Origin: an uncultured Eubacterium sp.
GTDB taxonomy: Bacteria; Bacillota; Clostridia; Oscillospirales; Acutalibacteraceae
Direction: 5' to 3'
Assembly: GCA_905234995.1 (NCBI GenBank)
Contig: CAJOJV010000002.1
Span: 49,906-113,905 of the forward strand
DNA length: 64,000 bases
A program made the translations under genes and the position numbers. Below the pieces are notes generated by a model. That model did not search any database, was not told where the DNA came from, and saw only the letters and a program-made list of their open reading frames with translations. This document shows positions 27,317 through 35,577 of the stretch, in pieces (positions within the stretch are counted from its first letter, which is position 1; the number at the start of each line of letters is the position of its first letter).

Positions 27317-27417
27317 GGAGAGATTCCCGCTCTTTATCGAAACCTCCACCGGAGGTTTCTCCCGAAAATTTTCGCCTGTTAGGCTTAATTTTCGGAAACT
27401 CGCTTCGCAATCTCTCC
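27317..27417 (-). repeat. Structured dispersed repeat (family C, copy 1)
   Basis: On minus: outer stem GGAGAGATT/AATCTCTCC; stem CCGAAAATT..AATTTTCGG; GGGAG then AAACCTCC ggt GGAGGTTT CGATA. Confidence 0.7.
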
Positions 27418-27461: not shown

Positions 27462-27552
27462 TGGCGCAGATGGAGAGATTCGAACTCTCGCGGCGGTTAC
27501 CCACCCTACGCCCTTAGCAGGGGCGCCTCGTCACCAGCTTGAGTACATCTGC
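27462..27552 (-). tRNA. tRNA-Ser(GCU), CCA encoded
   Basis: Minus strand GCAGATG...cccctGCTaaggg...long variable arm...GAGTTCGAATCTC...CATCTGCGCCA. Confidence 0.94.
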
Positions 27553-31596: not shown

Positions 31597-31672
<76 letters not shown>

Positions 31673-31675
31673 AAC

Positions 31676-31712
31676 AAATGCATAAGGCTTTTGCCTTATG
31701 CATTTATTTTTT
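31676..31712 (+). terminator. Terminator after the tRNA pair
   Basis: AAATGCATAAGGC tttt GCCTTATGCATTT then ATTTTTTT. Confidence 0.88.
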
Positions 31713-31716
31713 TATT

Positions 31717-31811
31717 GCGGACTTGAAACGACCTCCAAGAGCGGCGCGTTTAGTGCCGCGATTGGGAGAAAGGTCCGGTGGACCTTTCGATAGCCGGAGA
31801 GGAAAGTCCGC
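31717..31811 (+). repeat. Structured dispersed repeat (family C, copy 2)
   Basis: Outer stem GCGGACTT/AAGTCCGC; P2 CCAAgaGCGGC..GCCGCgaTTGG; P3 AAAGGTCC ggt GGACCTTT; then CGATA. Confidence 0.75.
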
Positions 31812-31849
31812 CGTTTGAGTCCTAACTTCAAGCAGAAAGTCCGCTATAC

Positions 31850-33985: not shown

Positions 33986-35221
33986 ATGAGCTATATTTAC
34001 GGCGGAGTATGTGCCGCAAAGGGCTTTAAGGCTGCAGGAATTTACTGCGGCATTAAAAAGAGTGCAGATGAAAGCGCTGCCCACAAAAACGATTTGGGAT
34101 TAATCCTTTCGGACGCCCCCTGCTCCACCGCCTGTGTTTACACCACAAACAAGGTTAAGGGCGCGCCGATATTGGTTACAAAGAAAAACCTTGAAAAAAG
34201 CGGCGGTATTTCAAAGGCGGTTATCGTTAATTCAAAGAATGCAAACACCTGCAATGCGGACGGCGAGGCTAAGGCAGAAAGAATGTGTGAGCTTGCAGCA
34301 GGTGCGCTCGGCATTGAGCCGCAGGAGGTTGTTGTTGCATCAACGGGCGTTATCGGCCAGGTTTTACCGATTGAGCCGATTGAGAATAAGATTGACGAGC
34401 TTGCCGCAAAGCTTTCCTACACGGGCAACGAGGAAGCGGCAACCGCAATTATGACCACCGATACCATTAAAAAGGAATACGCCTGCGAATTTGAAATCGG
34501 CGGGATTAAATGCACAATCGGCGGAATGGCAAAGGGCAGCGGAATGATTCACCCGAATATGGCAACCACGCTGAACTTCATTACGACGGACGCGGCAATT
34601 GCTCAGCCGATGCTGCAGAAAGCGCTTGATGAAATCGTTAAGGTTACATATAATTGCCTTTCAATTGACGGCGACACATCAACAAACGATATGGTTTGCG
34701 TGATGGCAAACGGCGAAGCAAATAATTCCGAAATCACCGCTGACGGCGCTGATTTTGAAAGCTTCAAGGCTGCGCTTTACGAGGTTATGATGAACCTGAC
34801 CCGTATGCTTGCAAAGGACGGCGAGGGCGCTTCAAAGCTGCTTGAATGCGAATGCAGCGGCTGCGAAACCAAGGATAAGGCAATCGTTATTGCTAAGAGC
34901 GTTATCGGCTCAACCCTTTTCAAATGCGCGATTTTCGGCGAGGATGCAAACTGGGGACGCGTGCTCTGCGCAATCGGTTATGCAGACGCTGAATTTGACA
35001 TCAACAAGGTTGACGTTGATTTGGCTTCCGAATTCGGCAGAATTGCCGTTTGCAGAAACGGCGCGGGAGTTGACTTTTCCGAGGAAGAGGCAGCAAAGAT
35101 ACTGAGCAGCGACGAGATTATGGTTTACGTTAACCTCAATGAGGGCGATGCATCTGCGATGGCTTGGGGTTGCGATTTAACATATGATTACGTAAAGATA
35201 AACGGGGATTACAGGACTTAA
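33986..35221 (+). CDS. argJ: Bifunctional glutamate N-acetyltransferase/amino-acid acetyltransferase
   Basis: GMAKGSGMIHPNMATTLNFITTDA autoprocessing region, NCLSIDGDTSTNDMV, C-terminal DYVKINGDYRT. Confidence 0.96.
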   Translation: MSYIYGGVCAAKGFKAAGIYCGIKKSADESAAHKNDLGLILSDAPCSTACVYTTNKVKGAPILVTKKNLEKSGGISKAVIVNSKNANTCNADGEAKAERMCELAAGALGIEPQEVVVASTGVIGQVLPIEPIENKIDELAAKLSYTGNEEAATAIMTTDTIKKEYACEFEIGGIKCTIGGMAKGSGMIHPNMATTLNFITTDAAIAQPMLQKALDEIVKVTYNCLSIDGDTSTNDMVCVMANGEANNSEITADGADFESFKAALYEVMMNLTRMLAKDGEGASKLLECECSGCETKDKAIVIAKSVIGSTLFKCAIFGEDANWGRVLCAIGYADAEFDINKVDVDLASEFGRIAVCRNGAGVDFSEEEAAKILSSDEIMVYVNLNEGDASAMAWGCDLTYDYVKINGDYRT

Positions 35222-35577
35222 GTAGACTTTTAGAAAGCAACAGCTTTCGCGTTAAATCGTAAACGAGTTTCCAAATTTTAAAGCCGCAGGTTGAAAAAAT
35301 TTGGGAGAACAGTCCGGTGGACTGTTCGATAATGAGTGACGAACCGTGGAATACTGCTTTGCCAAAGTTTAAAAAGACTACGGAGATTACAGAACTTAAT
35401 TAACCCAAAAATAAGACTAATTTTTAGCGTTAAATCGCAAACGAGTTTTCAAATTTTAAAGTTGCAGGCTGAAAAAATTTGGGAGAATAGTCCGGTGGAC
35501 TGTTCGATAATGAGTGACGAACCGTGGAATACTGCTTTGCCAAAGTTTAAAAAGACTACGGAGATTACAGAACTTAA
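35222..35577 (+). repeat. Two tandem 178-bp units containing family C repeats (copies 3 and 4)
   Basis: Highly similar 151-bp cores at 35249-35399 and 35427-35577, six transition differences all in the first half. Both units end GGAGATTACAGAACTTAA, like the argJ 3' end GGGGATTACAGGACTTAA. Confidence 0.88.

Follow-up and report, generated by a model that had tools for sequence, protein, structure and literature searches.

A folded element of about 95 bases behind transfer RNA genes of gut Oscillospirales

We analyzed a 64,000-nucleotide (nt) stretch of DNA from an uncultured Eubacterium sp. (contig CAJOJV010000002.1, positions 49,906 to 113,905 of the forward strand; here called the window), together with related genomes, and characterized a folded, hitherto undescribed element of about 95 bases that lies behind the transfer RNA (tRNA) genes of gut Oscillospirales. 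Its core of two hairpins (P2 and P3) is enclosed by a third helix (P1), both arms of which match the tRNA gene ahead. We consider it probable, though well short of certain, that this is a non-coding, non-autonomous mobile element whose core spreads among tRNA 3' ends and whose arms are rewritten locally. If so, some mechanism joins a fixed core to any tRNA T-loop at a single-nucleotide junction and leaves the tRNA working. To our knowledge, no bacterial repeat has been described in which both ends are rewritten to match the gene ahead, across some 30 kinds of tRNA.

The element and the tRNA genes ahead of it

An earlier note on this DNA had claimed four copies of a dispersed structured repeat (family C), and a check of the sequence of the 64-kb window recovered all four. 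The core motif TCCGGTGGANNNTTCGATA occurs exactly four times in the window, compared to 0.56 matches expected even with 3 mismatches allowed, and has 10 matches genome-wide (8 exact and 2 with one mismatch; none for the reversed control). A covariance model built from the 10 genome copies found 16 element copies in the window's genome at a threshold of E<1e-8. The order of the motifs and the compensated arms of P2 and P3 are as the note had described them; the P1 that it saw enclosing two copies is present in copies 1 and 2, but the arms of this helix are not free sequence and match a neighboring tRNA.

The complete element of copy 2 (31717..31812, plus strand; model score, 104 bits; fold z, -5.57) begins with the 5' arm GCGGACTT (31717-31724) and GAAACGA (31725-31731), followed by P2 (31734-31766), P3 (31768-31788), and the 3' arm AAGTCCGCC (31804-31812). 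The source of both arms is the tRNA-Thr(GGT) gene detected by ARAGORN at 31597..31672 on the plus strand, nt 57-65 of which (AAGTCCGCC, 31653-31661) recur in the 3' arm and have their complement in the 5' arm; a terminator-like hairpin (about 31677-31714) lies between this gene and the element. Copy 1, also complete, is on the minus strand (27317..27417; 58.5 bits; fold z, -4.93), with the 5' arm GGAGAGATT (27417-27409), P2 (27395-27362), P3 (27358-27340), and the 3' arm AATCTCTCC (27325-27317), which is the sequence of the 3' half of the T-arm of tRNA-Ser(GCT) upstream (27462..27552, minus strand; ARAGORN). In both copies the 3' arm repeats, and the 5' arm complements, the T-arm of the tRNA immediately upstream. 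Copy 3 (35251..35351, plus strand; P3 at about 35307-35327) is a core of P2 and P3 without P1, and copy 4 (35429..35529, plus strand), likewise without P1, repeats it in tandem at +178 bp. P2 is a long hairpin in copies 1, 3, and 4, and in copy 2 a stem in two parts (CTCCAA...TTGGGAG) that encloses a GC-rich hairpin.

We collected 137 distinct elements, and 92 parsed copies have a tRNA within 110 nt. All 92 lie 3' of the tRNA on the same strand, together covering 30 anticodons, mostly at a distance of 42 to 54 nt, usually about 45 nt, and behind the tRNA terminator, with shorter distances (0 to 24 nt) within tRNA operons. Elements without a nearby tRNA comprise second tandem copies, copies at contig starts, copies that follow a tRNA fragment, and a small number of genuine exceptions. 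The upstream tRNA is intact and its terminator normally retained, while the core (GAAACGA, P2, GGAGA, P3, and a segment ending in GAGAAGA) is joined exactly at the 56/57 boundary to a duplicate of the tRNA 3' end, nt 57-76, usually through CCA. This P1 3' arm is a direct copy that starts at nt 57 in 87 of the 92 elements and reaches A76 in 62. The opposite end of the core is complementary to this tRNA segment, and pairing between the two ends closes P1 around P2 and P3; the 5' arm complements its own tRNA from nt 54 or 59 to about nt 66, with a few arms extending to nt 70-74.

Agreement with the element's own tRNA exceeded that with shuffled tRNAs for the 3' arm (9.53 of 10 versus 6.31), the 5' arm (7.13 of 8 versus 5.02), and the tail (9.42 of 11 versus 6.31), each beyond all 500 shuffles, in a set of 92 copies that are not all independent because related species have loci in common. 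The same anatomy, with arms that match the local tRNA, is present in nine genomes retrieved once the rule was known, eight from outside the genus; their elements lie 40 to 59 nt behind Leu, Ala, Pro, Trp, Ser, Thr, Lys, and Arg tRNAs. These comparisons establish the anatomy of the element and its match to the tRNA ahead.

Two diverged copies, both with no intact upstream tRNA detected, have 5' arms complementary to more of a tRNA than usual: that of L052 complements tRNA-Arg(acg) to about nt 75, and that of L116 complements the T-arm including its 5' strand. Behind the tRNA-Thr element of L249, a terminator-like hairpin (gcgcatcc...ggatgcgc) repeats and inverts sequence of the tRNA-Thr anticodon arm, and this may be another inverted copy of a tRNA part.

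Fold and covariation

The consensus consists of the P1 5' arm, GAAACGA, P2, P3 (closed by TCC-GGT-GGA), CGATAGNNGAGARGA, and the P1 3' arm, making three helices; P2 takes one of two forms, a single long hairpin or CTCCAA...TTGGGAG around an inner hairpin that varies, and GGAG precedes P3 in most copies. Single-sequence folds gave z values of -4.9 to -6.4, and -2.9 for copy 3, which is without P1. Across 95 distinct copies, 93.5% of cells pair and the covariation score is 0.487, versus 0.147 after shuffling and at most 0.074 after sliding; for 24 distinct copies, mostly from other genera but including some from the genus member G008, the values are 87.9% and 0.509, versus 0.181 after shuffling, and the pair counts of both sets lean towards the model because the alignments had been fitted to it. 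The proposal of the earlier note that structure is under selection, be it in an RNA or in a folded ssDNA/mobile element, is supported by pair counts far above the shuffled and slid controls, also in copies mostly from other genera.

Counted on the tRNA-sense strand, G-U pairs outnumber A-C by 243 to 4 in P2, where two near-constant columns supply much of the excess, by 13 to 3 in P3, and by 41 to 21 in P1. The dinucleotides opposite nt 57-58 fall into the classes TT/AA (34 copies), TC/GA (23), GA/GA (39; a tandem G-A mismatch), and GA/AA (1), with 7, 1, 7, and 0 in the distant-genus set; the GA/GA exception is confined to sites able to form tandem G-A pairs, as a real helix predicts. The P1 helix is variable because its arms derive from whichever tRNA is upstream, and its covariation alone is not independent proof of selection on RNA because template switching could homogenize the arms. 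Template switching is a process that generates and maintains hairpins (PMC8794818); it could contribute to all of the stems, and we do not take covariation by itself as proof of RNA function. A real fold is still indicated by the covariation of P2 and P3 together with the strand-specific G-U excess and the exception for tandem G-A pairs.

Distribution, probable movement, and a proposed mechanism

Many copies exist beyond the four first noted, in searches of the genome, genus, and order. Within the genus, 27 of 37 genomes carry the element in 1 to 35 copies each, while its distribution in the order Oscillospirales is patchy (10 of 394 genomes and 7 of 168 genera, six besides its own); in a class-level draw of 391 genomes it was found only in the window's own genome. 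A strict pattern run against 85,462 species genomes, a set that may omit the window's own, matched only assemblies of Eubacterium, Oscillospiraceae, Ruminococcaceae, and related Clostridia, many of them from ruminants, and the phages and plasmids searched held no detectable copy. The genomes are metagenome assemblies or the like, and absences of genes or elements are for that reason not absolute. Relatives offer both occupied and empty versions of one tRNA-Asp-tRNA-Thr locus, which lies close to a gene encoding a P0001-like CHAP-domain protein. The window's genome, L249, and L267 carry the element there, L250 has a decayed copy, L266 retains only a 5' fragment, and L247, L252, and L258 lack it.

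Mobility is strongly supported by comparisons among the copies. Cores that are 98.7% identical carry different, locally matched arms behind Pro(cgg) at L183 and Leu(cag) at L134. Nearest-neighbor cores share their tRNA in 26% of cases compared to 3.4% by chance, and they also share their genome above chance, which indicates that inheritance at the locus and spread within genomes both contribute. In 12 of 45 copies, the terminator that precedes the element recurs after the CCA copy, and at L117, L191, L196, L169, L086, and L104 no second 5' arm follows; this suggests that nt 57-76 and the terminator were duplicated together at birth, with the terminators diverging later. Among the 54 copies whose terminators are unrelated, the tRNA is matched at 98 to 100% identity over nt 57-65 and at 67 to 91% over nt 66-76, with 29 perfect tails, and identity lies at the control level directly past A76, so that either selection or the copying process itself would stop at the mature tRNA 3' end. 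Chimeras (e.g., L088, L140, L141, L146, and L194), in which the 5' arm fits the upstream tRNA and the 3' arm another tRNA, probably arose when elements at two tRNA loci recombined. At sites where the tRNA and the 3' arm disagree, the 5' arm follows the upstream tRNA in 24 cases and the element's own 3' arm in 8.

Several irregular copies were also observed. At L123, L103, and L172, the second terminator is followed by a second 5' arm and the first 10 to 20 or so nt of the core and then by unrelated DNA, these truncated copies ending inside P2. L150 (3802-4251) holds three weak-scoring tandem copies of a variant subfamily with a different P2, and a variant whose P2 is short and which has an extra hairpin on its 3' side lies upstream of the L167 element.

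In the mechanism that we propose, a trans-acting factor would copy the core from one tRNA locus to another, recognizing the conserved T-loop (TTC|RA) and joining the core 5' of nt 57. The local tRNA 3' end would be duplicated in the process, in recent copies together with the terminator, and because of this duplication the tRNA would not be destroyed. The 5' arm would be made complementary by templating on the local tRNA, through snap-back or through template switching, the latter being a plausible way to fit it. The folded molecule is most likely a sense-strand RNA whose copied tRNA 3' end, with CCA, completes the fold, and we assume that the element is selfish.

Several observations weigh against this explanation. 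No gene recurs beside the elements, and no promoter-like (-10-like) excess precedes them. Reverse transcriptase (RT; PF00078) was not detected in the copy-rich genomes G000, G002, G006, G007, and G031; TnpB/Cas12f (PF07282) scored above the cut-off in only 2 of 38 genomes and is missing from the copy-rich ones; and Y1 transposase genes were not detected in the carriers G003, G008, G009, G012, G015, G033, and G034. Vertical descent accounts for much of the pattern, since neighboring cores also have the tRNA locus in common in different species, and template switching alone could maintain the pairing of the arms. Movement is read from sequence comparisons, and the exact insertion footprint from the duplicated terminators.

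An open frame of 563 amino acids was found near a contig end of the most element-rich genome (35 copies), at L343:1187-2876 (G002:C3); by eye it combines a CCA-adding tRNA nucleotidyltransferase-like part with a C-terminal Y1 (RAYT-like) domain, and it is either a true fusion or an assembly artifact. Loci in which genes lie between two elements, a glycosidase-like gene at L125 and toxin-antitoxin-like genes at L095 (both by eye), resembled integron-like cassettes with cargo, a reading that we rejected: the second element at L125 and comparable loci comes after a tRNA 3' fragment of the kind that islands ordinarily leave as a scar. The elements at L144, L176, L125, L168, L152, and L129 are preceded by tRNA 3' fragments whose start falls in the anticodon arm or variable region, as is typical of scars of island integration. 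We also rejected retroviral-style tRNA priming, since the 5' arm seldom reaches the CCA complement and RT genes are missing, and resemblances to the hammerhead, T-box, group II domain V, and RNase P, which did not fit the conserved bases.

Alternative explanations, known systems, and the argJ locus

The strongest alternative, which we nevertheless regard as unlikely, is that the element is a small RNA that serves the host, one per tRNA: the 5' arm would pair with the T-arm of its own tRNA or pre-tRNA, the tRNA-like tail with its CCA would engage processing enzymes, and the RNA would regulate the tRNA, being mainly vertically inherited and lost in some species. If so, gut bacteria would possess a whole series of T-arm-directed RNAs, tRNA by tRNA. 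A terminator-like signal behind the element (41 of 81 copies versus 8 of 280 control windows) fits this proposal, as do the persistence of tRNA identity to A76 and not beyond, the 5' arms that follow the upstream tRNA rather than their own 3' arm, and the sharing of tRNAs by nearest cores. Against these stand the lack of the element in 10 of 37 genus genomes, several of them about 98 to 99% complete, its usual position behind a terminator with no promoter-like signal, and the tandem, truncated, and chimeric copies, which resemble mobile debris.

It is less probable that the element is a DNA-level palindrome like the REPs, mobilized by a Y1 (RAYT-like) transposase and with arms homogenized by template switching in replication, and that it has no RNA role. 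REPs are short palindromes with a conserved tetranucleotide at the foot, which the GGAG at the foot of P3 may resemble, although the element has three helices. Y1/RAYT genes are found in several copy-rich genomes. Template switching does make and keep hairpins, and the element is short, dispersed, hairpin forming, and non-coding like REP/REPIN sequences with their RAYT (PMC3116915, PMC2817692). REP sequences, however, are not known to be bound to one strand behind tRNAs, whereas here the elements keep to tRNA 3' flanks on one strand and their arms are rewritten from the local tRNA. In addition, seven carriers have no detected Y1 gene, 20 Y1-domain loci, unlike RAYT genes flanked by their cognate repeats, have no element nearby, and the predominance of G-U over A-C pairs on the tRNA-sense strand argues against a DNA-only role.

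We also think it improbable that the element is a tRNA parasite acting at the RNA level, in which the 5' arm would guide the core RNA to the T-arm, the core would join nt 57 of the tRNA or of its gene, and the chimera with its copied CCA would be written back behind the tRNA. In many copies the 5' arm complements nt 54-65 and so spans the 56^57 junction. Such an element would be programmable, retargeting itself to each new tRNA.

Far less likely is an origin as leftover attachment sites of tyrosine-integrase islands, with the 3' arm as the tRNA 3' fragment displaced when the tRNA was restored. Islands leave a restored tRNA and a displaced 3' fragment (Islander; PMC4383910), and phage Ms6 integrates in the T-loop (PMC1762012); the element likewise targets the tRNA 3' half and T-loop, leaves the tRNA intact, and has a copy of its 3' end downstream (nt 57-76), and real island scars occur in these loci. 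The element differs in being only about 95 nt long, without an integrase gene or cargo, and in adding an inverted copy of the tRNA end and the conserved hairpins P2 and P3; the complementary 5' arm, P2 and P3, and the lack of cargo are left unexplained by this origin. An island integrase would be expected to serve one or a few tRNAs, whereas one core adjoins 30 anticodons in genomes where, among the copy-rich ones, only 1 to 3 tyrosine recombinases were detected.

We find least plausible a TnpB/Cas12- or CRISPR-associated transposon (CAST)-like guide RNA homing on tRNA genes, with the core as scaffold, nt 57-76 as a 20-nt guide, and TTC (nt 54-56) serving as the adjacent motif. The segment that is copied measures 20 nt and begins directly after TTC, and the element's own copy has no TTC in front; some tRNA-homing transposons insert about 65 nt from their target motif, the usual distance of the left end from TTC here. 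The drop in distance to 0 to 24 nt within tRNA operons argues against any such ruler, TnpB/Cas12f-like genes are missing in nearly all carriers, and the 5' arm would block the guide of an element that has no cargo. The likeness to TnpB omega RNAs, CAST homing guides, and bridge RNAs lies in a structured RNA joined to a segment that matches its own target; unlike them, the element has a self-complementary guide, and its copy-rich genomes have no TnpB/Cas12, in a search that IS110-type enzymes lay outside.

The earlier note had placed the repeat outside the named Rfam families, and comparisons with Rfam 15, phages, and plasmids matched no described element. Above the Rfam 15 cut-off the window matches tRNAs only, with sub-threshold matches at chance level, and nine other loci match only tRNAs and a neighboring Gut-1 RNA. 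The literature that we searched, which left the supplements of one human-microbiome RNA survey (PMC8040213) outside its scope, held no description of the element. Integron attC sites share its variable sequence with a conserved fold and its tandem arrays, but attC is one imperfect hairpin, whereas the element is a three-way junction with no attC consensus by eye and with arms equal to the local tRNA. Gut-1 (RF01706; PMC2864571) is likewise a structured repeat of gut bacteria, and one match lies right behind an element (L356:869-944); it is a separate array of GATAT-linked hairpins that matches both strands and has no sequence or fold in common with the element. Across L356:869-1044, directly behind that element, the Rfam Gut-1 model matches both strands of an ATGATAT-linked hairpin array, and Gut-1 could be a DNA repeat similar to REPs, not a small RNA.

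Copies 3 and 4 form a 178-bp tandem between argJ (33986..35221, plus strand; Pfam ArgJ, 492 bits) and an amino-acid kinase gene in the argB position, with no tRNA in front. The 5' arm region of copy 3, GTTAAATCGTAA (35251-35262), is complementary to argJ at 11 of 12 positions, and that of copy 4, GTTAAATCGCAA (35429-35440), is an exact 12/12 complement of argJ TTGCGATTTAAC (35170-35181). The last 20 nt of argJ (35202-35221) are repeated on the plus strand behind the core of copy 3 (35380-35399) and behind copy 4 (35558-35577) in an 18/20 alignment (score, 30; maxima, 28 and 24 in 1000 shuffles); arm and end matches are at or beyond the best of 1000 shuffles. This single locus is only suggestive of arm matching to a protein gene. 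The argJ stretch GGTTGCGATTTAAC is T-arm-like.
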